This document shows positions 9,696-45,103 of a stretch of DNA of 50,009 bases, piece after piece. Every line of letters begins with the position of its first letter. Within the stretch, counting starts at the first letter, position 1. Origin of the DNA: Nitrospira sp. (GTDB lineage Bacteria; Nitrospirota; Nitrospiria; Nitrospirales; Nitrospiraceae); the NCBI GenBank assembly GCA_013140455.1, contig JABFSU010000049.1:1-50009 (forward strand). The letters are read 5' to 3'. A program made the translations under genes and the position numbers. The notes beneath the pieces were generated by a model. The model made no database searches and had not been told where the DNA came from. It saw only the letters and a program-made list of their open reading frames with translations.

Positions 9696-11513
9696 ATGAA
9701 TTTTCTACAGACACATCTCGACGGCATTCGAAAGACCTTCCCGGACCTGGTTTCTGCAGTGACAGAAAGCGCCGGGGGAGTGCTCACCGTCGCACCGTCC
9801 CGAGAGGGCAGCCCGTCTGCCACGCAAGACGGACAATGGATTCATAGTGCCTACGACCCGAGAAAGGAAGCCCAGTCATGGGCTGCCCTGCAAGCGAAGG
9901 AATGGCACGCCGGAGAACTGGGCGTGGTACTTGGTGTGGGACTGCTCTACCACGTCGAGGCCTTAGTCGCAACGAAACCTGTTGGGGCGCGACTGGCCGT
10001 CGTGATTGTTGACATCACAGCTTTTAAGGATGCCCTGGCCGTGCGCCCTTTGGGCCCCTGGTTTAACGCGATTGAATGGATTTGGGGGAGTTCCGATGAA
10101 ATGGCGACGCAACTCGCATCCAAATCGGCCCCGCTACGTTTCTTCACCTATGCCCCAGCGGCGCGCCCCTATGCGGCACAGCACCAGGCTCTCGATGTGG
10201 AACTGCGCCGGCTCCTGGCGACACGGCTACATGGACGTCTGCATGTGGCCGTCGTAGGGCCGATCTATGGCGGCTCATTGCCAATCACGAAGTACGTCGT
10301 GCGGGCCCTTGAATCCCTTGGTCATCGGGTGAGTTGGGTGGACCACAGTATTCATCATGCCAGCTATGAGCGCTTCAATACGTTCCGCGATCCCCGCCAT
10401 CGGCTCTCGATGCAAAGCCGGTTTGCCGATGTCCTCAGTATGGGAACGCTGACGGAGCTTTCGGAGGATCCTCCGGATCTCGTCCTGGCCATGGCCCAAG
10501 CCCCCATGTCACTCGGCGCCCTGGAGCATCTGCGACGGAAGAAATTCATGACGGCCATGTGGTTCGTCGAAAACTATCGGCATTTGACGTACTGGCAGCA
10601 ACTCGCTCCCGGATACGATTATTGGTTCACCATCCAACAGAAAGACTGTCACGATGCCCTCCGGCGGGCCGGCGCGCCTCATGTCAGCTACCTGCCCATG
10701 GCCGCAGATCCGTCCGTGCATCGTCCTCTGGACCTGGCGATGAGCGAACAACTGGAATTCGGATCGGATCTGTCCTTTGTCGGTGCCGGATACGCCAATC
10801 GACGAGCGGTGCTCCCTCGTTGGATCAGCAAGGACTGGACATTCAAGGTGTGGGGGAATGAATGGGAAGGCGCCGATGCCGTGGCGCCTGTCTTACAGCG
10901 CAATGGTGCGCGGATCGACACCGATACGTGCCTCAAAGTGTTTAACGCCACCGCGATCAATTTGAATCTCCACTCGAATACCGGTGAGGGATTGGACCCG
11001 GCGGCAGATTTCGTCAATCCGCGTACGTTTGAACTGGCCGCGGCCGGGGCCTTCCAACTTGTCGATCAACGGGCACTCCTTCCCGAGTGCTTTACCGAAG
11101 ACGAGATCGTCAGCTTTGAAGGAACCGATGAAGTGCCTTCCCTGATCAGAACCTGGCTTCGAGATCCGGTCGGTCGCCGGACCATCGCCGATGCGGCCCG
11201 CCAGCGGGTCTTGCGGCAGCATACGTACGAACATCGCATGAAGGACCTTCTGGCCGAATTGGGCATGCGGGAACCGGATCGGTTGGGTTCGATCCTGCGA
11301 GGAGAACGGACTGCGGAGGTTCTCGCCGCACAGACGACCACGCCGCCTGAACTCGCCCCGATGTTGCGGCAATTCGCGCCCGATCAGCGGGTCGAGCTCA
11401 AGGATCTGGCAGCACAGATTCGCGCCCGCGGGCCCCGCACAGAACTCAGCCGTGAAGATCTGCTCATTCTCATGCTGGAAAGTTATCGGACTGAAACCAG
11501 GGACTTGGTATGA
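9696..11513 (+). CDS. CgeB-like glycosyltransferase
   Basis: This 605-residue protein resembles the CgeB/DUF3880 glycosyltransferase family. It has a GPIYGGSLPITKYVVRAL nucleotide-sugar-fold segment in the middle, a FVENYRH segment, and a C-terminal DFVNPRTFELAAAGAFQLVD donor-site region. I chose ATG 9696 because GAGGAG, overlapping the previous stop, lies just upstream. An in-frame start at 9588 would overlap the GT9 gene by about 100 bases and add a non-conserved arginine/proline-rich leader. The stop overlaps the next ATG by four bases (ATGA). Acceptor and donor are unknown. Confidence 0.8.
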   Translation: MNFLQTHLDGIRKTFPDLVSAVTESAGGVLTVAPSREGSPSATQDGQWIHSAYDPRKEAQSWAALQAKEWHAGELGVVLGVGLLYHVEALVATKPVGARLAVVIVDITAFKDALAVRPLGPWFNAIEWIWGSSDEMATQLASKSAPLRFFTYAPAARPYAAQHQALDVELRRLLATRLHGRLHVAVVGPIYGGSLPITKYVVRALESLGHRVSWVDHSIHHASYERFNTFRDPRHRLSMQSRFADVLSMGTLTELSEDPPDLVLAMAQAPMSLGALEHLRRKKFMTAMWFVENYRHLTYWQQLAPGYDYWFTIQQKDCHDALRRAGAPHVSYLPMAADPSVHRPLDLAMSEQLEFGSDLSFVGAGYANRRAVLPRWISKDWTFKVWGNEWEGADAVAPVLQRNGARIDTDTCLKVFNATAINLNLHSNTGEGLDPAADFVNPRTFELAAAGAFQLVDQRALLPECFTEDEIVSFEGTDEVPSLIRTWLRDPVGRRTIADAARQRVLRQHTYEHRMKDLLAELGMREPDRLGSILRGERTAEVLAAQTTTPPELAPMLRQFAPDQRVELKDLAAQIRARGPRTELSREDLLILMLESYRTETRDLV

Positions 11514-13186
11514 ACCGCCAGGTACTGATCCTGAATATCACGCGGATGGGCGATCTGGTCCAAATGGGGACCTTGCTGTCCCGGCTGCAAGAAGAATGGC
11601 CTGGGGTGGCGGTCGATGTGATCGTGGATCGCCGGTTTGCCGCCGTCGCGTCCCTGCTGCCCGGGATCCGGGACATTATCACCTACGACTTCCATGCCCT
11701 GATTGATGACAGCCGCGCGGCCGCCAAGAGTGTCACCTCGCTCTATGCAGACCTCGCCACCTGGGCTCGCCCATTGGTTGAGAGACGCTACAATCGCATC
11801 ATCAACCTCACCTTCAATCGTCCGAGCGCGCTATTGGCTTCGTACATCGGCGCACCGGATATTCGCGGCGCCCGATGCGCCTGGGACGGGGAGAGCGTCA
11901 TTGAGAATCCCTGGATGGCGTATTTTACCGACATGCATCATTTCCGCGCCTTGAATCGATTCAATCTGGTCGATGTCTATGCCTTGGGAGGAAGCGGACC
12001 GGGAACCTACGCGCCATTGTCGGTGCACGTGACGACCGCGGCGCGCGAATGGGCACAACGCTTTCTCACCGCTGCGCCGGAGACAGCAAAAGAGTGGATT
12101 GCCGTGCAAGCCGGGGCAAGCGACGTGATGAAGGCTTGGCGGCCTGAGCATTTCGGTCGCACACTGGCGCACCTGAGCACCAGATGGAAGGGCGGAATCG
12201 TCCTCATTGGAACACCGGCCGAACAAGACACGATCGCACAGGTCGTACGAATCTATCGGGAGGCCGGAGGATGCAATCCCGTCCTCAATGCGGCTGGACA
12301 GACGACGCTGGAACAGTTGGTGGGTTTGCTCGCGGAATGTCGTCTCCTCTTAACCAACGACACCGGTCCGATGCATTTGGCCGTCGGTGTGCAGGTGCCT
12401 GTGATTGATCTTTCCGTCGGGCACGTGGATTTCCGAGAGACCGGTCCCTATGGATCGGGACATTGGGTCGTGCAGCCGGAGCTTGAATGTGCCCCCTGCG
12501 GATTCGACCAGGTGTGCGCCCATCAAAGCTGTAAGGATCGTCTTCCAGTAACCATGGTGGCGGATTTGCTCTTGCATGTGCTGGCCAAGGGGGAATGCCC
12601 CCCGGCCGCGCCCGGCTATCGGCTCTATCGCTCGTCCGTCGACGAAGATCAGTTGGGCAGCTATTGCGCGGTAGGAACCGAAGAGTCCTCAGACCTCGAC
12701 TGGTATGGCCGGTACTGGAGACGTTACTGGTATGAAACCCTGACCCACATCACCAGCCGTATCCCGGCAGACTCGGCGCTGCCTCACAATGCCGTTGCAG
12801 CGGCACACCACCTGGCAGGCATGATGCCGGACATAGACCGGCTCTGCCGTCAAGCCGATGCCATTGTGCAGGCTGCCAGACAAGTTGCGCAATCGCCCGG
12901 TTCGTTGCAGGCTCTTCAACGGGAACAAACTGCGTTGCGTGAACGTGTCGTACACCTGGGGATGGCCCATATCGCCAGTTCCCCGGTGACGACCTCGTTC
13001 GTGCGCTCCATTCACCATGATCATGTCAGGGGACTTGATCGTATGGCCCGGCATCATGCCTTGGCATATCGGCAATGGAGGAGGCATCTCACAGAGATCT
13101 ATCGACACCTGACTCAGAGTCCCTCGAAGTCCACATTGCGGCGATTGGCTATGTTCACTGATTCTTCAGTCGCCCATTCAGGATAG
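11510..13186 (+). CDS. GT9 family glycosyltransferase with C-terminal extension
   Basis: The 558-residue protein opens with the GT9 signature (LILNITRMGDLVQMG) and has LTNDTGPMHLAVGVQVPV near residues 281-298, then a cysteine-rich loop (CAPCGFDQVCAHQSC) seen in several GT9 proteins. Beyond about residue 370 there is an extra helical region of about 190 residues with no domain I can name; it may bind the acceptor. The start overlaps the previous stop (ATGA), indicating translational coupling. Two stops in tandem (13184-13189) end the gene. It is the last glycosyltransferase before the flagellar filament genes. Confidence 0.82.
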   Translation: MNRQVLILNITRMGDLVQMGTLLSRLQEEWPGVAVDVIVDRRFAAVASLLPGIRDIITYDFHALIDDSRAAAKSVTSLYADLATWARPLVERRYNRIINLTFNRPSALLASYIGAPDIRGARCAWDGESVIENPWMAYFTDMHHFRALNRFNLVDVYALGGSGPGTYAPLSVHVTTAAREWAQRFLTAAPETAKEWIAVQAGASDVMKAWRPEHFGRTLAHLSTRWKGGIVLIGTPAEQDTIAQVVRIYREAGGCNPVLNAAGQTTLEQLVGLLAECRLLLTNDTGPMHLAVGVQVPVIDLSVGHVDFRETGPYGSGHWVVQPELECAPCGFDQVCAHQSCKDRLPVTMVADLLLHVLAKGECPPAAPGYRLYRSSVDEDQLGSYCAVGTEESSDLDWYGRYWRRYWYETLTHITSRIPADSALPHNAVAAAHHLAGMMPDIDRLCRQADAIVQAARQVAQSPGSLQALQREQTALRERVVHLGMAHIASSPVTTSFVRSIHHDHVRGLDRMARHHALAYRQWRRHLTEIYRHLTQSPSKSTLRRLAMFTDSSVAHSG

Positions 13187-13207
13187 TAGCCGGATGACTC
13201 CGGCCTA
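13187..13207 (+). terminator. Short stem-loop after the glycosyltransferase cluster
   Basis: GCCGGA at 13189-13194 and TCCGGC at 13199-13204 form a perfect six-pair stem with a four-base loop just behind the double stop. There is no T-run, so it is a weak terminator or an mRNA-end or attenuation structure at best. Confidence 0.3.
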
Positions 13208-13236
13208 TCCCGCGCAGTCAAGAAGGAGAGAACGTT

Positions 13237-13755
13237 ATGCATGTCATGCTTGATCAAGACCAGTGGGAAGTCGTCAATGGACTCAGTCTTGGCGACGTGT
13301 TGGCAGATATCAGTGAGAAAGCGCATGCCCGCTCACGCCTGATCACGTCCTTGACCGTGGATCAGCGTGCCATTACGGATCGCGATTTGGATTCGGCCTT
13401 CTTAGGTGAGCCAATCGCGCGGTTTACTCACCTCCAAGCCATTTCTCAAACCATGGAAGAGGTGATGCGCGGTGCCGCGCCGACGATTCAGCATTACGCT
13501 GATCTCCTCCGCAATGAAGCACAGGAACTCGCCTCGCATATCCGCATGGGAGACGAACGGCTTACATCATTGGATGCATGGCTCGGCAAACTCGCCGACT
13601 ATCTCGAGCTGGTGGAATCCAAGCCGGCGAAGCCGCATCCCGATCGTGCCATGACTCCCTGGGTGCAGGCCTTACTGGATGCACGTGCTCAACGAGATCT
13701 CATTCGCATGGCCGATCTCCTTGAATATGAACTCGCACCCAGGTTGGAGTCCTAA
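13237..13755 (+). CDS. Unknown protein between glycosyltransferases and flagellin
   Basis: The gene has a strong AAGGAG ribosome site and encodes 172 mostly helical residues with no signal peptide or membrane segment. I cannot name the family. The C-terminal stretch, RMADLLEYELAPRLES, resembles tails of small uncharacterised proteins in flagellin-proximal loci of other bacteria (from memory, not checked). Lying 50 bases behind the GT9 gene and before the sigma-28-like flagellin promoter, it is likely co-transcribed with the glycosylation genes. A role in flagellin modification or export is only inferred from position. Confidence 0.65.
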   Translation: MHVMLDQDQWEVVNGLSLGDVLADISEKAHARSRLITSLTVDQRAITDRDLDSAFLGEPIARFTHLQAISQTMEEVMRGAAPTIQHYADLLRNEAQELASHIRMGDERLTSLDAWLGKLADYLELVESKPAKPHPDRAMTPWVQALLDARAQRDLIRMADLLEYELAPRLES

Positions 13756-13825
13756 AATGACCGACGTGTTCATTACATTCGGTTTCTGTCGACGGGTGTT
13801 GTTCACCGCAGTTGATTCGAGCCTC

Positions 13826-13852
13826 TCAAGTCTTAGGGGCATCCTCCGATAA
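13826..13852 (+). promoter_or_regulatory. Candidate sigma-28 (FliA) promoter of flagellin
   Basis: TCAAGTCT at 13826-13833, an 11-base spacer, and TCCGATAA at 13845-13852 match the enterobacterial sigma-28 pattern TAAAGTTT-N11-GCCGATAA at 6/8 and 7/8 positions. The predicted start near 13859 gives an untranslated leader of about 94 bases before the flagellin ATG. Flagellin is a classic FliA target. Confidence 0.65.
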
Positions 13853-17408: not shown

Positions 17409-17609
17409 ATGGGAATCGCAGTCCATCAGATACATAACCTCGTCCGGACGTATCAGCGAGCGCTGCAGCCAACCTCATCGGATACGTCTCCCGCGCTAGA
17501 CAACCGCCACGCCGACCGCGTCTCTGTATCAGCGGAAGCCCGTGAACTGCATGAGCAAGTCACCGCACGTCCAGAACATGACCGCAACAGCACAAAGAGG
17601 TCCAGGTGA
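17409..17609 (+). CDS. Small flagellar-locus protein resembling the FlgM N-terminal half
   Basis: The 66-residue protein has an N-terminal helix (IHNLVRTYQRALQ) and DRVSVSAEARELHEQ, a pattern like the DKIEISSQAKEM segment in the disordered N-terminal half of FlgM anti-sigma-28 proteins and in other small flagellar-operon proteins. It ends before the C-terminal helices that in FlgM grip sigma-28, so it cannot be called FlgM. GGGAG precedes the ATG. The stop overlaps the GTG start of the cyclase gene (GTGA), so the two are coupled. The role is unknown. Confidence 0.6.
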   Translation: MGIAVHQIHNLVRTYQRALQPTSSDTSPALDNRHADRVSVSAEARELHEQVTARPEHDRNSTKRSR

Positions 17610-19135
17610 GCGCACAACCGCACGACGATCTTTCGCGTATTCTTCTCGTCGGAACCCAGGCTTTCCATCGGGATATGCGCTGGATTCAACTCGCGCGACA
17701 TGGCTTTGCATTCGTGCCCGTCGCAAAACGACACTGCACACTCGACACTGATAGCACCACAGATATCCAGGCCATCATCTATCAGGCGGGCGCCAGAACC
17801 ACGGACACGCTGGCTTTTCTCCAAACCGTCGCAAATCGACAGAGTGATCTGTGCATCATTCTCGTCGGACAGAACCAGAAGCCAGACACGGTCGCACAGT
17901 TTCTCCGCAAGGGCGCCTTCGACTATGTAAACTGGCCCTGTTCCCTGACACGCCTGACCGATTCTCTGATCAGCGGACTCAACAACCGCCAGACGTTTTT
18001 GGAAGTCCGCAACCTCTCCGGAGATCTGGCCACCGCTAATCAGTCCCTCGCCCATGAGCGAGATACGCTCAAGCAATTCAATCAACGCTTGGCCGGCCTC
18101 AATCAGTTGACTCAGGCGCTGGCCAGATCACTGAAACCTGAAGATGTCGTTCAAGCCCTCTTCACCGGTGTTCCCTCACTCATCGGGGCCGAACTCATTG
18201 GCTTAGTTCGCACAAATCCTGAGCATGTCTGGACCTGGTCGAAAGGCGGCAACCAGGAACGGGAACACACCCTCAAAACACAACTCCTCGGACGACTCGG
18301 ACGATCGCCCCAGCGCGTCACATCAGGCGCAACCACGCTGCGCCTTGTCGGCTCACGTCCCATACCGCTGATGAGAAGTGAAGACGCAATACCCGCGCAC
18401 CCACAACAAGAAGCACATGCGATGCACGATATTCCGTTGGCGATCGGACCTCACGCCATTGGGGTCCTACACGTTCAACGAGATGAGTCTCAGCCCTTCA
18501 CAGAAGATGAACAGCAGTTGCTGGCGACCATCGGCACATCGCTGTCACTCACGTTACGGAATGCCGATGCCCATCAGGATCTCCAAGACATGGCATTGCG
18601 GGACCCTCTGACCGGCGTCTTCAACCGCCGCGCCCTCGATGAACCGCTCATGCGTGAATTGAAAGCTGGCCTCCGCTACGGGGCACCTGCCTGCCTGATG
18701 ATCTTGGACCTCGACTATTTTAAAACCGTGAACGACCGCTTGGGACACACGGCCGGCGATCTCGTCTTGAGAGAGCTGGCATCGTTGATGACGGACACCG
18801 TGCGCGACGTCGATACGGTCGGGCGTTATGGGGGAGAAGAGTTTGCCATCATCCTGCCGCATACCTCAGTCGAGCAGGCCAGACCCCTAGCCGAACGCCT
18901 ACGCAACTTGATTGAGACCCATGCGTTTAACGTCGAGGATGGTACGGTTCGACTGACGGCCAGCATCGGGATTGCCGAAGTGTGCAATCCGGCCATTGCC
19001 TCGGTTGAGGATTGGGTGAACGCAGCAGATACGGCGCTCTACGACGCGAAGGCGCAGGGGCGTAATCGCGTGGTCGTCCACGCACCAACTCCGCTCGCTC
19101 CGGTTCAGGCTGCCCGGCTCTGCGTCGCAGCCTAG
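17606..19135 (+). CDS. Diguanylate cyclase with receiver-like, GAF-like and GGDEF domains
   Basis: The 509-residue protein has a GTG start coupled to the preceding gene. Residues about 10-125 look like a receiver fold, but the acidic pocket and phospho-acceptor Asp are missing (RILLVGTQAF at the first strand, IILVGQ at a later strand), so it is a pseudo-receiver. A coiled coil follows near 135-165, then a GAF-like region about 170-320. The GGDEF domain covers about 332-500 with DPLTGVFNRRALDE and a GGEEF active site at 409-413. An RxxD inhibitory site (RDVD, 400-403) lies the canonical five residues upstream, so product inhibition is expected. It makes c-di-GMP from GTP in the cytoplasm. The PilZ gene next door is a likely reader. 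Confidence 0.9.
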   Translation: MSAQPHDDLSRILLVGTQAFHRDMRWIQLARHGFAFVPVAKRHCTLDTDSTTDIQAIIYQAGARTTDTLAFLQTVANRQSDLCIILVGQNQKPDTVAQFLRKGAFDYVNWPCSLTRLTDSLISGLNNRQTFLEVRNLSGDLATANQSLAHERDTLKQFNQRLAGLNQLTQALARSLKPEDVVQALFTGVPSLIGAELIGLVRTNPEHVWTWSKGGNQEREHTLKTQLLGRLGRSPQRVTSGATTLRLVGSRPIPLMRSEDAIPAHPQQEAHAMHDIPLAIGPHAIGVLHVQRDESQPFTEDEQQLLATIGTSLSLTLRNADAHQDLQDMALRDPLTGVFNRRALDEPLMRELKAGLRYGAPACLMILDLDYFKTVNDRLGHTAGDLVLRELASLMTDTVRDVDTVGRYGGEEFAIILPHTSVEQARPLAERLRNLIETHAFNVEDGTVRLTASIGIAEVCNPAIASVEDWVNAADTALYDAKAQGRNRVVVHAPTPLAPVQAARLCVAA

Positions 19136-19162
19136 GATGTGCAAGAAAGAGTCAGGCCCACG

Positions 19163-19762
19163 ATGAATCACGCCCAGTCGCTCCAAGAATCGTCCCTCGC
19201 CGTCGATGAACGCCGGGAGTGGATCCGTGTCGACGATCACCTCTTGATGGAGTGTCGCCTCACGAGCGAATCGGCCGACACCCCCCAGCCAGGCACGCCT
19301 CCGCTGACCGATGAGATGATTGCCGCTGCCGTCGGCAAGCCGACCGCCGATCTGCTCGCACGCACAGGCGATACGCTGGCGACGTCGCCTTTCCTCCCTT
19401 GGATCATGAAAGTGGATTGGCTGATGGAGGTGCTGCTGCGGGGCATGGCGCACATTCAGCCCGATAGTATCGCCATCGCGCGACTGACCGAGGTGAATAT
19501 CAGCGGGGGAGGGATCAGTTTTGTCTCGCCGCGCCCGTTCCAACCATCGGACCTGTTGACACTGAAGCTGATTCTTCCGCCCTTCACTCCCGTCAACACG
19601 ACCGCCAAGGTCATTCGCACCTCGCCGCTGACCGGGGCGCCCGGCTACCTCATTGCTACGCAATACGTCGACCTGTCTCCGGATCATCAAGAAGACATCA
19701 TCCGCCACATCATTCAGACACAAGCCGAACGGCTTCGGGCCAGACGGAATACCGGAAGCTAA
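19163..19762 (+). CDS. PilZ domain protein, putative c-di-GMP receptor
   Basis: The protein (199 residues from ATG 19163; a GTG at 19139 would add eight residues but has no usable ribosome site) shows both c-di-GMP-binding signatures: RREWIR at 17-22 (RxxxR) and NISGGG from N112 (D/NxSxxG). About 90 residues separate them, far more than in a minimal PilZ fold, so an extra helical insertion (about residues 40-100) sits between. That fits PilZ-like proteins of flagellar loci that carry a helical module. It directly follows the cyclase gene and probably couples c-di-GMP to flagellar behaviour. Its target is not visible. Confidence 0.8.
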   Translation: MNHAQSLQESSLAVDERREWIRVDDHLLMECRLTSESADTPQPGTPPLTDEMIAAAVGKPTADLLARTGDTLATSPFLPWIMKVDWLMEVLLRGMAHIQPDSIAIARLTEVNISGGGISFVSPRPFQPSDLLTLKLILPPFTPVNTTAKVIRTSPLTGAPGYLIATQYVDLSPDHQEDIIRHIIQTQAERLRARRNTGS

Positions 19763-31940: not shown

Positions 31941-32210
31941 ATGACAGGCCCTATGCATCTGGCCCCCAGCGGCGATCTGACGATATTTGAAATCTGCGAC
32001 TTCAAAGCCCAACTGCAGACCGGCTTGAAACAAGATCAAGGCATCACCGTCGATCTTGGAGAAACAGGAACCGTGGATGCGTCGGCGCTCCAGCTTCTCA
32101 TTGCAGCCTGCCGCCACGAGTCAGTACAACTGATCAATGTGCCGGCTCGCGTCGCAGAACGTTTCGCTCAGATGGGGTGGACGCGACCGAAAGGACAAGG
32201 GCTCACGTGA
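31941..32210 (+). CDS. STAS domain protein (anti-sigma-antagonist-like)
   Basis: The 89-residue protein is a compact STAS domain; [13 protein letters not shown] around S48 corresponds to the phospho-acceptor loop of SpoIIAA-like proteins. The rest is shorter and more diverged than the two later STAS proteins. CAGGAG precedes the ATG, and the stop overlaps the next ATG (TGATG), so it is coupled to the MCP-like gene, which suggests the two proteins act together. Confidence 0.8.
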
Positions 32211-38952: not shown

Positions 38953-39771
38953 ATGGATTACCCGATCACCAAACAGGAATACGACCGGATCCGCACGCTG
39001 CTGTATCAAGAAAGCGGGATTTCGCTGGGGGAGAATAAGCAATCCCTCGTCGTCTCACGCCTGTCCAAACGATTGCGCGAGTTGGAGATCGACAGTTTCG
39101 CGGCCTACTACGATCAGGTAACGCAGGACGACAGCGGCGGCGAGTTTACCCGCATGCTGGATCTGCTCTCAACCAACAAAACCGATTTCTTTCGTGAGCC
39201 CAAACACTTCGACTATCTCAGAGAACAGATCCTGCCGACGTTGGAGCGCGAGAAACGCATTCGGATCTGGTCCTCAGCCTGTTCAACCGGCGAAGAGCCT
39301 TACACCATCGCCATCACCTTGCACGAGCACGTCAAGAATCCGGCGTCATGGGAGATGGACATTCTCGCCTCGGACATCTCGACACGAGTCCTGGCCCATG
39401 CTGCCGCAGGATTGTATGGCGAGGACCGGATCACGACCGTTTCGCCGGACATCGCACGGCGTCACTTCCTGAAAGGCCGTGGCAAGAGCGCGGGATTGGT
39501 GAAAGTGAAACCGCATCTTTCGAAGCTCATCAAGTTCCGCCGGCTCAATCTGATGAGCGACACATTCCCCATCAAGTCGCCGTTGGATCTGATTTTTTGC
39601 CGCAATGTGATGATCTATTTCGACCGCCCGACACAAGAACGGCTCATCGCCAAGTTTCATCGCTACCTGAAACCCGGCGGTCACCTGTTCATCGGACATT
39701 CCGAGAGTCTCCAGTGGATCAAGCATGACTTTACGACGATCGCCCCGACGATCTATCGAAAGGACCTTTAA
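38953..39771 (+). CDS. cheR: Chemotaxis protein methyltransferase CheR (copy 2)
   Basis: The 272-residue protein has a CheR N-terminal domain (LLYQESGISLGENKQSLVVS) and a SAM domain with RIWSSACSTGEEPYTIAI, DLIFCRNVMIYFD and LFIGHSESL. It methylates receptors. It stands immediately before cheD and cheB, giving cluster 2 its own adaptation set. The FEEF tail of the nearby receptor may recruit it. Confidence 0.93.
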   Translation: MDYPITKQEYDRIRTLLYQESGISLGENKQSLVVSRLSKRLRELEIDSFAAYYDQVTQDDSGGEFTRMLDLLSTNKTDFFREPKHFDYLREQILPTLEREKRIRIWSSACSTGEEPYTIAITLHEHVKNPASWEMDILASDISTRVLAHAAAGLYGEDRITTVSPDIARRHFLKGRGKSAGLVKVKPHLSKLIKFRRLNLMSDTFPIKSPLDLIFCRNVMIYFDRPTQERLIAKFHRYLKPGGHLFIGHSESLQWIKHDFTTIAPTIYRKDL

Positions 39772-39776
39772 CCTGA

Positions 39777-40400
39777 ATGTCCGCGGTCGACACCGAACAC
39801 TTCCGTCATATCCGCCGCATGACGGATCGGCGCTTTCCGCATGAGATCGCCTCGATCCTCCCAGGAGAGTTCTTTGTGAGCGGCGAACCGATGGTGGTCT
39901 ATACCGTGCTGGGATCCTGCATCTCGGCCTGCATTCGCGATCCGCTCGCCGGCGTGGGAGGGATGAATCATTTCATGCTTCCGGTGCCCAGAGAACACCA
40001 GTCCGGCGACGCCTGGGGAGGGGAGTCCACCCGTTATGGTTCGTTTGCCATGGAACAGTTGATCAACGGGATTCTCTCCCGCGGCGGGGCGAGACAGCGG
40101 CTGGAGATCAAGCTCTTCGGCGCCGGAAAAATCTATGAGGGGAATATCGACGTCGGCGCCCGCAACTCCGAATGGGTCCTTCGTTATCTCCACGATGAAG
40201 GCCTTCCCGTCGCCAAGCGTGATCTGGGAGATGTCTTTCCACGTAAGATCTACTACTTCACCCATTCAGGACGTGTGCTCATGAAAAAAATTACACGGAT
40301 CAAAAACCAGACGATCGTTGCACGAGAATCCGATTACGAATACCGGCTGTATAAGGAACGGAACGAACCCGAGCAGCAGAGCGATGTCACATTGTTCTGA
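39777..40400 (+). CDS. cheD: Chemoreceptor glutamine deamidase CheD
   Basis: The 207-residue protein has the CheD catalytic Cys in LGSCISACIRD and the catalytic His in GGMNHFMLP; KLFGAGKI and LPVAKRDLGD are also typical. It deamidates receptor glutamines and can interact with CheC-type phosphatases, though none is seen here. It has a 30-residue N-terminal extension with acidic and basic residues. It starts five bases after the cheR stop and is followed nine bases later by cheB. Confidence 0.92.
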   Translation: MSAVDTEHFRHIRRMTDRRFPHEIASILPGEFFVSGEPMVVYTVLGSCISACIRDPLAGVGGMNHFMLPVPREHQSGDAWGGESTRYGSFAMEQLINGILSRGGARQRLEIKLFGAGKIYEGNIDVGARNSEWVLRYLHDEGLPVAKRDLGDVFPRKIYYFTHSGRVLMKKITRIKNQTIVARESDYEYRLYKERNEPEQQSDVTLF

Positions 40401-40409
40401 GAGGCACTC

Positions 40410-41465
40410 ATGGCCAAGATACGCGTCCTGAACGTCGATGATTCCGCGCTCATGCGCCAAGTCCTCGCCCAGCTGCTGTCCAAAGATCCTGGGATCGAGG
40501 TGGTCGGTTCGGCCCCGGATCCTTATATTGCACGCGAAAAGATCAAAGCATTGAATCCCGACGTGATTACCCTCGACGTGGAGATGCCCAAGATGGACGG
40601 GCTCACCTTCTTAGAGAAATTGATGCGGGGCCGACCCATGCCGGTCGTGATGGTCAGCTCCCTGACAGAGGCCGGGTGCCAGACAACCCTGCGCGCGCTG
40701 GAGCTCGGCGCGGTCGACTACATCACCAAGCCCAAGATCGATCTTCGCGACGGCATGGAAGGGATTGCCGACGATTTAATTGAGAAAGTGAAAGCCGCCG
40801 CCAGCGCCAAGATACGCGGGGCCGCGAACGGGGCCGGTCACGCGCAACCGCGGCAGGCGATTCCGCTCTCCTCGGCCATGATCAAAACAACCGATATCAT
40901 TATTGCCATCGGCTCCTCAACCGGCGGAACGGAAGCCGTCAAAGAAGTCCTGGAAGTGCTCCCCCCCAATACCCCTCCCATTCTGATCACGCAGCACATG
41001 CCTGAACATTTCACCAAGACATGGGCCGACCGGATGAACCAGATTTGCCGGATCTCGGTCAAAGAAGCGCAGGATGGGGATAGCGTACTCCCCGGCCATG
41101 CCCTGATTGCCCCGGGCAGTTATCACATGACGCTGGTGCGTAACGGCGCCCGCTATTCCGTGCGGATCAATCAAGACCCGCCGGTCAATCGGCACCGGCC
41201 TTCCGTGGATGTGATGTTCGATTCCGTCGCGCGGTATGCCGGCGGCAACGCCGTCGGTGTCATCCTGACCGGAATGGGCGGGGACGGCGCTAAGGGCATG
41301 CTGGCGATGAAACTGGCCGGCGCCCATACCATCGCGCAGGATGAAGCGAGTTGTGTCGTCTTCGGAATGCCCAAGGAAGCCATCAAGTTAGGCGGTGTGG
41401 ATAAAATCCTCCCTCTGGGAGACATCGCCGGTGCTGTGCTAACTCATGTGTCTCATCATTCTTAA
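40410..41465 (+). CDS. cheB: Chemotaxis methylesterase CheB (copy 2)
   Basis: The 351-residue protein has a receiver with phospho-acceptor D56 ([11 protein letters not shown]) and a methylesterase domain with catalytic Ser in [11 protein letters not shown], His in [11 protein letters not shown] and Asp in [11 protein letters not shown]. It is clearly diverged from copy 1. The gene follows cheD by nine bases and is followed 16 bases later by a STAS gene with GGAGG. Confidence 0.94.
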
Positions 41466-41481
41466 CCTGTGGAGGCTCCTC

Positions 41482-41814
41482 ATGCAGATCGCGCATCGTT
41501 CCTATCGTACGGCCGATGTCATCGACATCACCGGGCAGTTTAATTTCGGAACCCGGAAAGAGTTCTCTGCCGCAATCGAAAAGATCAAAACCAGTCCGCA
41601 TGTCATTCTGAATTTCAAGGGTGTGACCTTCGTCGACAGTGCAGCCATCGGGCTGCTCGCGCTGGCCGCGCAACAATTCAAGAGCGCCAACCGGACATTG
41701 TCGCTGGTCGGCGCTCAAGGAACCGTGAAGCAGGTGCTGAACCTGGCGCATATCGAACAAATGATTCCGACTTTTGCGAGTGAAGATGCAGCGTTGAGCA
41801 AAGCAGCCGCCTGA
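41482..41814 (+). CDS. STAS domain anti-sigma factor antagonist (first of pair)
   Basis: The 110-residue protein is a STAS domain with VIDITGQFNFGT at the start and GVTFVDSAAIGLLALAAQQ around S53. The phospho-acceptor loop has Ser followed by Ala where many antagonists have Ser-Ser or Ser-Thr, so regulation by phosphorylation may differ from its neighbour. ATG 41482 follows GGAGG; an upstream in-frame start overlaps cheB. It probably binds the HATPase protein encoded at 43778. Confidence 0.9.
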   Translation: MQIAHRSYRTADVIDITGQFNFGTRKEFSAAIEKIKTSPHVILNFKGVTFVDSAAIGLLALAAQQFKSANRTLSLVGAQGTVKQVLNLAHIEQMIPTFASEDAALSKAAA

Positions 41815-41867
41815 GCGTAGAAACCTATTCTTGCGCGCAGACACATCAGACTGAAAGGACAACCACC

Positions 41868-42212
41868 ATGCAGATTAAAGAACGACCGATCCCCAACGCC
41901 GTGATCCTCGACCTGAACGGAGATTTGACCTACGCCCATCGTGACGTGTTCAAAGCCGCCGTTGAAACGTTGCGCCAAAAAGGCTGCCGCCATGTCATTT
42001 TGAATATGGCCGATGTCCGGTTTGTCGATAGCTCAGGCCTGGGCCTGCTGGCGCTGGTCTCCCAGAATTTCAAGCTCAACCAGGGCAAAGTCAGCATGCT
42101 CAGACCGCAAAGTTATGTGCGGGAAATTCTGGGACTGGCCAATATCCCGAAGTTGATTCCGGTATTCGACAACGAACAGGATGCGGTGAACGGGAAAGCC
42201 CAAGCCGCGTAG
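41868..42212 (+). CDS. STAS domain anti-sigma factor antagonist (second of pair)
   Basis: The 114-residue STAS protein has VILDLNGDLTYAHRD and VRFVDSSGLGLLALVSQN; the DSSGLG loop with S55/S56 is the canonical phospho-acceptor site of SpoIIAA/RsbV-type antagonists. AAAGGAC precedes the ATG. Paired with the STAS gene before it and with the phosphatase and kinase after it, it is the probable switching partner of this module. Confidence 0.92.
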   Translation: MQIKERPIPNAVILDLNGDLTYAHRDVFKAAVETLRQKGCRHVILNMADVRFVDSSGLGLLALVSQNFKLNQGKVSMLRPQSYVREILGLANIPKLIPVFDNEQDAVNGKAQAA

Positions 42213-42225
42213 CGATTGAGATACC

Positions 42226-43425
42226 ATGAATTCTGATACTCTTTCGAAACCCGCTCTGTCCTCGGCTGTCGCCACGGTGCTCCTGGTGGATGACGAGCCG
42301 GTCAGCCGTTTGAGTATGGCCGCCCGCCTGAAACGGATGGGACTTCGCGTCCTCGAAGCCGGCAATGGAAAGGAGGGGCTCGCCATCCTGCGGCGTGAAC
42401 GTCCGGATCTGACGATCCTAGACTGGGTCATGCCTGAAATGGACGGGCCCACCGTCTGCGAGCAGGTCCGGCAAGACCCCGACATCCTGTCCAGTCAGCT
42501 CATCTTGATGACCTCCCACGACCAACCGGAACAAATCGCCGAGGGTTTGGCGCGGGGGGCCGACGATTTTCTGAGCAAAGCCGCCAGCAAGCAGGAGGTG
42601 CTCGCCCGTGTGCAATCCGGTCTTCGGGCCGCCTCGCTGGTCCGCAGCATTGAAAGCACGCGGGATGAGCTCCGCGCCAAGCAAGGTGAATTGGAAGGCG
42701 AACTCAAATCGGCCGCCGACTACATCCAATCCTTGCTTCCCGTGGCCGGTGAGATCACCCGGGACATCCGCATGTCCTGGAGCTATCGCCCCTCTCAGGC
42801 GCTCGGCGGAGATCTGTTCAATGTGTCGCACTGGGACGATCAGTCGGTCTACTTCTATATCCTGGACGCCTCCGGGCATGGCGTGGCGCCCGCCTTGCGC
42901 GCTGCGTCGCTCTCGACGTTTCTCCGTGCCGACAATCTTCGGCACTACATGAATTCCAGCGATCCGGCTCGCATGATGACGGAAGCCAACCGGCAATATC
43001 CACTGACTGAAGACGGCAGCTACTTCACCCTCTGGATCGGATCTTTCGATCGACGCACCCGCCAGCTGCGCTATACCACGGCCGGTCACGGCGGTGCGCT
43101 CCTCCAGCGGCAGAACGGGACAGTCGAATGGCTGACGCATACCCAGCTTCCCCTGGGTTTTGAAGCGGACACCACGTACGAGATCACGACCGTCCTGATT
43201 GCCGATGGCGATCGCGTCCTGCTCATGAGCGACGGAATCTACGAAGCGCCTGCGCCTACAGGAGAACTCTGGGGAACCACGCGTTTGGAGACCACCTTTA
43301 TGGCCCATCGGTCCGCACCACTCGGGGAGGCGCTGCCGGCGCTCATGGCGGAAGCCGAACGCTGGCATGGGGCTCCGGTCTTTCCCGACGATGCGGCGTT
43401 GCTGGGATTGGAGTTCCGACTATGA
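42226..43425 (+). CDS. Receiver-PP2C (SpoIIE/RsbU-like) phosphatase
   Basis: The 399-residue protein has an N-terminal receiver (about 17-140; phospho-acceptor D66 in ILDWVMPEMDG), a coiled-coil linker about 145-175, and a SpoIIE/PP2C phosphatase domain about 185-399. Metal-binding Asp motifs are visible as ALGGDLFNVSH, ILDASGHGVAPAL, LLMSDGIYEA and the terminal FPDDAALLGL. The Lys after the receiver's last strand is followed by Ala rather than Pro (LSKAAS). Such enzymes dephosphorylate STAS antagonists when their receiver is phosphorylated. It starts 13 bases after the STAS gene and overlaps the Hpt gene (ATGA). Confidence 0.92.
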   Translation: MNSDTLSKPALSSAVATVLLVDDEPVSRLSMAARLKRMGLRVLEAGNGKEGLAILRRERPDLTILDWVMPEMDGPTVCEQVRQDPDILSSQLILMTSHDQPEQIAEGLARGADDFLSKAASKQEVLARVQSGLRAASLVRSIESTRDELRAKQGELEGELKSAADYIQSLLPVAGEITRDIRMSWSYRPSQALGGDLFNVSHWDDQSVYFYILDASGHGVAPALRAASLSTFLRADNLRHYMNSSDPARMMTEANRQYPLTEDGSYFTLWIGSFDRRTRQLRYTTAGHGGALLQRQNGTVEWLTHTQLPLGFEADTTYEITTVLIADGDRVLLMSDGIYEAPAPTGELWGTTRLETTFMAHRSAPLGEALPALMAEAERWHGAPVFPDDAALLGLEFRL

Positions 43426-43781
43426 GCACCGACGTCGTGTTTAATCTTGCCGAAGCGCTCACACGGGTCGATGAGGACGAAGAGCTGTTTCACACGCTGG
43501 CTGAATTGTTCGTCGAGCAGGCGCCCTTGGACATGGCCGCCACCCAGGCCGCGCTCGATGCCGGGGATGCCGAGGCCCTGGCTCGCGCCGCGCACCGGAT
43601 GAAAGGCGCCATTTTGCAATTTTCAGCTCCCCGTGTATTCGAGGCGACCAAAGAGCTGGAAGCCCTCGGAAAAGCCGGCACCTTGGACCGCGCCGCAACG
43701 GTGTGCGCCCAAGTCGATCGGGAACTTCAACAACTCATTGCGGCGCTGCGCGCATACGTAGCGAACGGATCTGCATCATGA
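43422..43781 (+). CDS. Histidine phosphotransfer (Hpt) protein
   Basis: The 119-residue all-helical Hpt domain has its phospho-acceptor at H58 (RAAHRMKGAILQF). It would carry phosphate between a kinase and the receivers of its two neighbours. The start overlaps the phosphatase stop and its stop overlaps the next start (ATGA at both ends), so the three proteins are made together. No dedicated hybrid kinase is in the window; CheA is a possible donor. Confidence 0.9.
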   Translation: MSTDVVFNLAEALTRVDEDEELFHTLAELFVEQAPLDMAATQAALDAGDAEALARAAHRMKGAILQFSAPRVFEATKELEALGKAGTLDRAATVCAQVDRELQQLIAALRAYVANGSAS

Positions 43782-44677
43782 ATACTCCCATTTCATCCTG
43801 CACTGTCCTGGTGGTCGATCCCTGTCGAGATACACAAGCGCAGATTTTAGAACACCTGCAAGACCGCGGATTCTCCGTGATCACGGCGTCCGACCCAAGC
43901 ACGGCGCTCGCGACCATCGAGCTCACGGCCCCGGATATCGTGTTGACCGATTCCTTCCTCCCGGAAGGCTCCGGTCTGACCTTGACCAAGACGCTTCGAG
44001 CCAGACATGTGCCATGCCCGGTCATTGTGATGGCCGCCCATCAGTCTGAACAGGCGGTGATCCACGCGCTGCGCGCCGGGGCCGTGGATTTCTTGCAGAA
44101 GCCGATCGGCGTGGAAGAGCTGGCGCATGCGCTGCAACGCGCGCGCTATCTGCTCCCGGCCGATATGACGGATACACCGGGCCTCGTACGTTCCGACTAC
44201 GAACTGACCGTCGATTCAGACCCGCGGCATATCCCCGGCATTGTCTCCTGGCTGATCAGAGCCACGGCCGGTGCATTGTCCGATACGACTCAGCTCCATC
44301 TCCGCGGCACGCTTCAAGAGTTGCTGCTCAATGCCGTCGAGCACGGCAATCTGGAGATCTCCTACCAGACCAAACAACAGGCGATCGATCAGAACCGCTT
44401 GAGCCAACTGGTGCAGGATCGCCTGGCTCAGCCGCGCCTGGCCCAACGCACCGTCACAATCCATGTGCGTTGTGACCGTCAGGCAGGATTGTTGGAGTAT
44501 CGAATTGCCGATCAGGGAAAAGGATTTCAATGGAAAACCTTGCTGCATCGCTCCAGCACACCCTGCAACGCTGAAGATGCCAGCGGACGGGGGATTTTCC
44601 TGGCCCGGTCGTTCTTTCCCAATCTCCGCTACAACGATCACGGGAACGAAGTGACGGTCCAGATTCCTATTCATTAG
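43778..44677 (+). CDS. Receiver-HATPase (RsbW-like) anti-sigma kinase
   Basis: The 299-residue protein has a receiver (about 9-125; D14 in the pocket, phospho-acceptor D58 in VLTDSFLPEGSG, K108) and a GHKL ATPase of the anti-sigma-factor serine-kinase type (about 160-299), with LQELLLNAVEHG as N-box, IADQGKGFQW as G1 and SGRGIFLARSFF as G2. It has no dimerisation His domain. Such proteins bind and phosphorylate STAS partners and may also bind a sigma factor. ATG 43778 overlaps the Hpt stop; an earlier in-frame start lies within the Hpt gene. Confidence 0.9.
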   Translation: MNTPISSCTVLVVDPCRDTQAQILEHLQDRGFSVITASDPSTALATIELTAPDIVLTDSFLPEGSGLTLTKTLRARHVPCPVIVMAAHQSEQAVIHALRAGAVDFLQKPIGVEELAHALQRARYLLPADMTDTPGLVRSDYELTVDSDPRHIPGIVSWLIRATAGALSDTTQLHLRGTLQELLLNAVEHGNLEISYQTKQQAIDQNRLSQLVQDRLAQPRLAQRTVTIHVRCDRQAGLLEYRIADQGKGFQWKTLLHRSSTPCNAEDASGRGIFLARSFFPNLRYNDHGNEVTVQIPIH

Positions 44678-44703
44678 CATCGACATCCGTCCGTCTGACG
44701 GGC

Positions 44704-44733
44704 TTGACGCCACCCCCTCAGAGGTTCTATCTT
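44704..44733 (+). promoter_or_regulatory. Candidate sigma-70 promoter for the lipoprotein gene
   Basis: TTGACG (44704-44709), an 18-base spacer and TATCTT (44728-44733) lie 35 bases before the ATG. The -35 matches 5/6 and the -10 matches 4/6 of the consensus. Confidence 0.4.
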
Positions 44734-44767
44734 CCGGCATCATCTGTCTGCCACCGGGAGGATTTGC

Positions 44768-45004
44768 ATGACCAGTCGGCTCATTTTTTCATCGTTCTTG
44801 CTCTCAGGACTCCTCACCGGTTGCGGGGGCAGTAATTGGGTCCACCCAAATAAACCCTCGTCTGAATTTACGAACGAATATAACCGCTGTCAGAACCTCG
44901 TGCTCCGCGACCCGAAGCTTCAACAGGGGAGCCAGCTGCTGATCCTTAACGCCACCGAACGCTGTCTTCAGCGTGAGGGATGGCGCATCGTAGAAAGCGA
45001 ATAG
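44768..45004 (+). CDS. Small predicted lipoprotein
   Basis: The 78-residue protein has a type II signal peptide: basic start, hydrophobic IFSSFLLSGLL, and lipobox LLTGC with the lipid-carrying Cys at 19, then GGS. The mature part is about 60 polar residues with two further Cys (NRCQNLVL and ATERCLQREGWRIV) that could form a disulphide. GGGAGG precedes the ATG. No family is recognised. It follows the signalling module but has its own candidate promoter. Confidence 0.75.
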   Translation: MTSRLIFSSFLLSGLLTGCGGSNWVHPNKPSSEFTNEYNRCQNLVLRDPKLQQGSQLLILNATERCLQREGWRIVESE

Positions 45005-45103
45005 CCTCTCATTTCACGCGTCCTGATAGGCTCGACCGGTCAGCCGTTCTGCTGATACCTCTGTCTACGTTCCACAATCCCTGCGAAGTTGTTTGCATCC
45101 TGC

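Follow-up and report, generated by a model that had tools for sequence, protein, structure and literature searches.

The window analysed here is the whole 50,009-nucleotide stretch of Nitrospira DNA, which corresponds to contig C53 of a 3.79 Mb genome (G000). Our subject is a block of five genes on its forward strand that encodes the parts of a partner switch with a phosphorelay input. The upstream context consists of the open reading frames of cheR-cheD-cheB (38953–41465, forward strand), names given in a preliminary description of this DNA, and these three proteins find the identical order at the loci of relatives. The block starts 16 bp after cheB with two STAS genes, STAS1 (41482–41814; 110 amino acids; Pfam STAS, 3.7e-16) with the loop VDSAAIG, and STAS2 (41868–42212; 114 amino acids; Pfam STAS, 2.5e-18) with the loop VDSSGLG, the core antagonist. 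They are followed by a receiver-PP2C (SpoIIE) phosphatase of 399 amino acids (42226–43425; Pfam Response_reg 1.1e-25, SpoIIE 4.2e-37), here called PP2C, and by a stand-alone Hpt protein of 119 amino acids with the motif AHRMKG (43422–43781; Pfam Hpt, 8.3e-13). The last gene encodes a 299-amino-acid protein that Pfam resolves into a receiver-like domain and HATPase_c_2, resembling serine kinases and anti-sigma factors (43778–44677); we refer to it as KIN. ATGA overlaps join PP2C to Hpt and Hpt to KIN. Coordinates and Pfam domains agree with the preliminary description, which had placed the block after cheR-cheD-cheB, with its last three genes ATGA-coupled and a single Hpt between the two enzymes.

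Gene order at the relatives' loci (L numbers below) was assigned by single-sequence phmmer. The same order was found at the loci of 29 Nitrospira contigs and of others of the order, wherever the contig allows, and cheB lies upstream of the block at most of them. Among the 236 genomes of the order KIN is present in 130, PP2C in 150 and CheD in 121. PP2C co-occurs with KIN in 124 of the 130 KIN-positive genomes, and the two genes lie no more than 2.5 kb apart in 46 of the 47 sampled genomes that carry both on one contig. The block order is far from chance. The expectation that all five genes would keep their order in other genomes held across the loci of the order, but only for a core of four genes, as STAS1 is variable. 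It occurs in only some lineages and is missing from many relatives, for example at L015, L017, L021 and L025, where cheB is directly followed by STAS2. Motifs and homology support the view, already taken in the preliminary description, of a partner-switch module with phosphorelay input, kept beside chemotaxis and motor genes across the order. Within 40300–45100, promoter-like sites were not above those of shuffled sequence, and terminator-like sites were slightly above the shuffles, with none just after KIN; no structured RNA with an Rfam match was found in 30000–50009. Two genomes carry a second Rec-PP2C copy adjoining the first (G153:C339 and G167:C33).

The two receivers of the block are unequal. 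Receiver sites are defined by five conserved residues; if even one is missing, the domain is classed as a pseudo-receiver (PMC12632262). In the ortholog alignment the receiver of PP2C (42277–42612) has the complete DD-D-T-K site, and it is canonical in all 63 distinct orthologs with these positions covered. The catalytic motifs of the PP2C/SpoIIE domain (42835–43416; PF07228) are intact as well, and all its metal-binding Asp residues are kept. The receiver of KIN (43805–44134) reads D-P-D-A-K instead of D-D-D-T-K. The preliminary description had credited both receivers with an intact phospho-Asp; the acceptor Asp is indeed kept in both, but the KIN site is not intact, because its second acid, which binds metal directly, and the conserved Thr are gone (VDPC for VDD, and VMAAH). 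By the definition above it is a pseudo-receiver. The HATPase_c_2 domain behind it (44216–44662) has an intact N box (LNAVEHGNL), G1 (DQGKGF) and G2 (GRG).

This decay is not confined to the window. Across the 67 distinct KIN sequences of the order, the receiver is degenerate in 59 and canonical in 8. In KIN proteins of the genus and of lineage g14, Pro or Ser replaces the second acid, usually along with Ala or Gly for Thr; in g17 the first acid is replaced by Ala and Lys by Gln; the g6 protein (L154) has lost all five site residues; and at L019 the acceptor Asp is Glu. The ATPase motifs are retained throughout, and the N-box Asn is kept in 67/67. In the wider family of more distant relatives, 43 of 50 KIN-type receivers are canonical. 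Since the canonical state is found in the 8 proteins on the other side of the KIN tree, in most of the wider family and in LvrC of Leptospira, it is probably ancestral. In a maximum-likelihood tree a single branch, with support of 100/99, separates the canonical from the degenerate state; the change is therefore counted as one main transition, with further decay after it. The AlphaFold2 model predicts that the KIN receiver is still well folded (mean pLDDT of the whole protein, 84.5).

The preliminary description had proposed that one phosphorelay input sets both arms of the switch. This is at odds with the distribution of the two receiver states: on the side of the KIN tree with a stand-alone Hpt all 59 of 59 proteins have a pseudo-receiver, and the PP2C receiver is never degraded. 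Because the input domain of KIN has decayed, both arms probably do not respond to one and the same signal.

Variants of the kinase gene were seen in other genomes. The complete genome G056 carries a receiver-less HATPase_c_2 gene between STAS and MotB, beside the module (L178, 9162–9842), and in G028 (L177), likewise complete, KIN is lost and PP2C and Hpt are retained. The alphaproteobacterial Kiloniella (L065, L073, L085) has a che operon with the order CheR-CheD-CheB-MCP-STAS-PP2C and a convergent Rec-HATPase gene, whose receiver (EPDTK) has Pro at the second acid, apparently an independent case. Rec-HATPase proteins of Sumerlaeia/Sumerlaeota (L051, L067) have DPDIK receivers, again with Pro at this position.

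The state of the KIN receiver coincides with a difference in the Hpt gene. In the relatives with a canonical KIN receiver, the gene before KIN encodes a hybrid histidine kinase of about 1000–1500 amino acids whose last domain is an Hpt. Such a kinase fills the slot of the stand-alone Hpt in 7 of the 8 canonical cases (L156, L157, L159 and L160, and by motif also L158, L168 and L183); in the other, L184, the contig end cuts the slot. At L154 the order is hybrid kinase, separate Hpt gene, KIN, an arrangement that looks like an intermediate. Compared with the terminal Hpt domains of these operon hybrid kinases, the window Hpt scores 79 to 41 bits, versus 2–5 bits for CheA P1 domains and 17 bits for the C73 Hpt of its own genome. 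These scores indicate a common origin of the window Hpt and the Hpt that ends the operon hybrid kinases, and no such tie to CheA P1. The kinship may reflect either a kinase that lost its Hpt or a free Hpt that was fused. A dedicated hybrid kinase, which the preliminary description had regarded as incompatible with its proposal if it were the sole Hpt donor, is present in relatives, inside the operon itself. At L160 an HD-GYP-like (DUF3391-HD) protein, likely a cyclic di-GMP (c-di-GMP) phosphodiesterase, is encoded between STAS and the hybrid kinase (12466–13845), and L159 has a gene of similar size at this place.

The block of the window genome has no dedicated hybrid kinase of its own, and the candidate donors, among them the hybrid kinases at C37:25265, C87:29570, C37:55092 and C17:18122, lie elsewhere in the genome. 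Family searches, with the CheA of C75 set apart, yielded 16 hybrid kinases with C-terminal receivers, 11 of them without an Hpt in frame or within 6 kb. The genome has three small stand-alone Hpt genes; two adjoin a hybrid kinase and the window Hpt does not. The best genome matches of the operon hybrid kinases are four Hpt-less tandem-receiver kinases, a ranking that is only indicative and biased, as some Hpt-bearing kinases entered the comparison cut short at the ends of the stretches used. This set of Hpt-less kinases with a lone Hpt resembles the situation of HptB in Pseudomonas, on which the signals of several hybrid kinases converge (PMC6482189). Elsewhere in the genome, a PAS-containing protein, apparently anchored in the membrane, has a KIN-like HATPase at its end (G000:C137:12427-12774, L095; NGVEHGNLNLSYAEK), and its gene is close to a hybrid kinase with an Hpt.

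For the STAS proteins, the preliminary description had noted the different loops, DSAAIG in STAS1 and DSSGLG in STAS2, and had suggested that only one of them may be a classical switch. The loops were confirmed. However, the acceptor Ser aligned to SpoIIAA Ser58, by which a classical phospho-STAS is recognized, is kept in both, in 21/21 STAS1 and 58/58 STAS2 orthologs, and we therefore rejected STAS1 as a non-phosphorylatable STAS. The relatives of STAS2 in the PDB are SpoIIAA and TM1081. A third STAS gene, STAS0 (31941–32210, forward strand; Pfam STAS_2, 1.5e-8), stands before MCP-CheY-CheA2 and has the loop VDASAL, with Ala at the acceptor position. Its place resembles that of CheS in rhizobial che operons.

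We then compared the block with characterized systems. The nearest PDB entry of the window Hpt is HptB of Pseudomonas aeruginosa (7c1i, 2.4e-8, by sequence similarity only). In that organism several hybrid kinases donate to HptB, which feeds the receiver-PP2C protein HsbR (PMC6482189), and the relay switches the one HsbR chain between kinase and phosphatase (PMC6482189, PMC5085249). Unphosphorylated HsbA frees FliA through FlgM, and phosphorylated HsbA binds the cyclase HsbD (PMC6482189, PMC5085249). The hsbA-hsbR-hptB genes adjoin cheR-cheW, flgM, a PilZ gene and the diguanylate cyclase gene hsbD (PMC5085249). The Nitrospira block shares with HptB-HsbR-HsbA(-HsbD) an HptB-like Hpt, a receiver-PP2C with canonical receiver, a HATPase serine kinase and a STAS antagonist, as well as a location near genes for flagella, chemotaxis, a PilZ protein and a diguanylate cyclase (PMC6482189, PMC5085249). 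It differs in that HsbR is a single chain comprising receiver, PP2C and kinase, with just one receiver, whereas Nitrospira has two proteins with two receivers, that of the kinase decayed, and sometimes two STAS proteins. CrsR-CrsA of Shewanella oneidensis likewise combines receiver-PP2C-HATPase with a STAS antagonist, but as one fused protein, and it controls RpoS (PMC6482189). The window genome also has a second partner switch with the HsbR/CrsR layout (G000:C37:9611-11589, L111), in which a STAS gene (loop DSTGLG) precedes a fused receiver-PP2C-HATPase gene (9847–11589), with a receiver gene upstream.

The solved structure closest to PP2C is RssB of P. aeruginosa (3eq2), with which it shares the Rec-PP2C layout. 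The RssB model NF045505 is also its best NCBIfam match, at 118.3 bits against an equivalog cut-off of 700 bits, so that membership of the RssB family was ruled out. Among solved structures, both sequence (1.3e-22) and fold place KIN closest to LvrC of Leptospira (9qih); it was the fold search that identified 9qih as LvrC, and no paper on 'SenB' was found in the open-access literature. LvrC joins Rec to Bergerat/HATPase_c_2 as KIN does. It is phosphorylated by the histidine kinase LvrB and has a canonical receiver, in contrast to DPDAK in the window KIN, and the sections consulted mention no PP2C, Hpt or STAS partner of LvrA-LvrB-LvrC (PMC13269768). Rhizobial CheS is, like the STAS proteins here, a STAS-only protein encoded in a che operon; it binds CheA, and the sections consulted of the review describe no phosphatase/kinase pair (PMC12654446).

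Taken together, we consider the module probably to be a phosphorelay-controlled partner switch like HptB-HsbR-HsbA of Pseudomonas, with HsbR split in two and with the relay reaching the phosphatase only. Orphan hybrid histidine kinases elsewhere in the genome would pass phosphate to the stand-alone Hpt, which would phosphorylate the intact receiver of PP2C and change its phosphatase activity, as the HsbR precedent suggests. PP2C, whose motifs are intact, would dephosphorylate STAS2 at its acceptor Ser, and likewise STAS1 in lineages that have it. KIN would phosphorylate the same Ser outside relay control, because its receiver has lost residues that phosphorylation requires. The loss itself is observed; its consequence would be a KIN arm that works constitutively or responds to ATP or to binding partners. 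The phosphorylation state of the STAS proteins may then set flagellar motility or the choice between a sessile and a motile state. Candidate outputs are KIN acting as an anti-sigma factor, FlgM, or the neighbouring pair of diguanylate cyclase and PilZ. The latter (17606–19762, forward strand; Pfam GGDEF and PilZ) are possible output genes, and genomes that lack flagellar-type CheA likewise have such genes upstream of the module. FlgM is encoded at C51, and there are 13 sigma-region-2 matches in the window's genome.

The ancestral form of the module was probably an operon with a dedicated hybrid kinase ending in this Hpt and with a working receiver on both enzymes. More tentatively, we propose a stepwise rewiring across the order, a scenario that is plausible but falls somewhat short of probable: the operon hybrid kinase was lost, the Hpt survived as a hub serving other kinases and, in the same lineage, the KIN receiver decayed, so that only the phosphatase would be commanded and the kinase would act as a fixed threshold. 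The parts and the logic are known. Judged against the open-access papers, to which the search was limited, what is new is the split into phosphatase and kinase with a receiver each, and the family-wide decay of the KIN receiver, coinciding with loss of the operon hybrid kinase. In textbook partner switches a phosphatase opposes a kinase, and the division of the incoming signal between the two is seldom settled. Some members of the order carry the module with two intact receivers and others with one, and the hybrid kinase that probably fed it is found there as well, so that orthologs allow the question to be tested. For Nitrospira, an environmentally important nitrifier, the module is also a concrete candidate pathway from sensing to the motility or sessile state.

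Some observations weigh against this interpretation. Canonical receivers and operon hybrid kinases go together on a single branch of the tree, so their association amounts to one evolutionary event, and at L154 an operon hybrid kinase is combined with a KIN receiver that has decayed. Nearly all KIN proteins of the genus retain the acceptor Asp and the Lys, which could mean a residual role. The KIN receiver might still be involved, with Hpt or the PP2C receiver docking on it or weakly phosphorylating it, so that the signal would be shared by binding and not by canonical chemistry. Pseudo-receivers can act via dimerisation or ligand binding (PMC12632262), the KIN domain is confidently folded in the model and kept in most orthologs, and Asp and Lys are retained in both g1 and g14. 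We nevertheless regard such a role as unlikely, given that the site residues lost differ by lineage, up to all five at L154, that a receiver-less HATPase_c_2 gene stands by the module at L178, and that L177 keeps PP2C and Hpt without KIN.

The remaining alternatives tie the module to the chemotaxis array. Flagellar-type CheA is present in 111 of the 130 KIN-positive genomes (odds ratio 7.9). This association is real, but the genomes are related and its p-value is therefore not independent evidence. Flagellar-type CheA is absent from 19 of the KIN-positive genomes and CheD from 41; near-complete among the 19 are G038, G051, G077, G079, G118, G122, G126, G143 and G165. Weak PF02895 matches (1e-9 to 1e-11) were taken as putative pilus-type CheA. 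MotAB and DUF420 immediately precede the block at L149, L150 and L167, and MotAB precedes it at L154, in each case without the second che set. In genomes without flagellar-type CheA it lies behind MotAB at L170–L172 and L175; the two of these analysed in more detail, L172 and L175, have GGDEF and PilZ genes upstream, and L175 also FliD and FliS. The steadier neighbours are therefore the motor and c-di-GMP genes. That one phosphorelay from CheA or the receptor array, via Hpt, sets phosphatase and kinase together is highly unlikely in our view. It would fit the conserved position by che genes across the order, the tendency of KIN and of PP2C to occur in genomes with flagellar-type CheA, and the acceptor Asp kept in nearly all KIN receivers. 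However, KIN has a pseudo-receiver, the Hpt is unlike CheA P1 domains, a hybrid kinase occupies the Hpt slot in relatives, and the module persists without flagellar-type CheA, without CheD or without the second che set. Moreover, the P1 domain of CheA can phosphorylate receivers directly, so an extra Hpt is not needed. The earlier suggestion of CheA or the array as donor is thus not borne out by the sequence evidence, and CheA as an obligate donor was ruled out by the KIN-positive genomes without flagellar-type CheA and by the kinship of the Hpt; some cross-talk from CheA would still be compatible with these data. It is also quite unlikely that the STAS proteins modulate CheA2 in the manner of CheS, or regulate the motor locally, with the enzymes tuning this inside the array. 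This idea draws on the CheA-binding, STAS-only CheS of rhizobia (PMC12654446), on the che and MotAB genes beside the module and on STAS0 before CheY-CheA2. Against it, the block occurs without CheA2, CheR, CheD and CheB at L149, L150, L154 and L167 and next to MotAB in the genomes lacking flagellar-type CheA (L170–L172, L175), and the rhizobial system, in the form reviewed, has no PP2C/HATPase pair.

Apart from the module, the window's genome encodes a STAS protein whose loop, FIDQRG, departs from the usual acceptor type (L115 1279–2315, i.e. G000:C73, about 9780–10815). Its gene adjoins a sigma-70 family (ECF-like) gene and is also next to a sigma-54-activator-like gene. Finally, a contig labelled as uncultured Nitrosospira (L023) carries the Nitrospira module; it groups inside Nitrospira on the KIN tree, and the label looks wrong.

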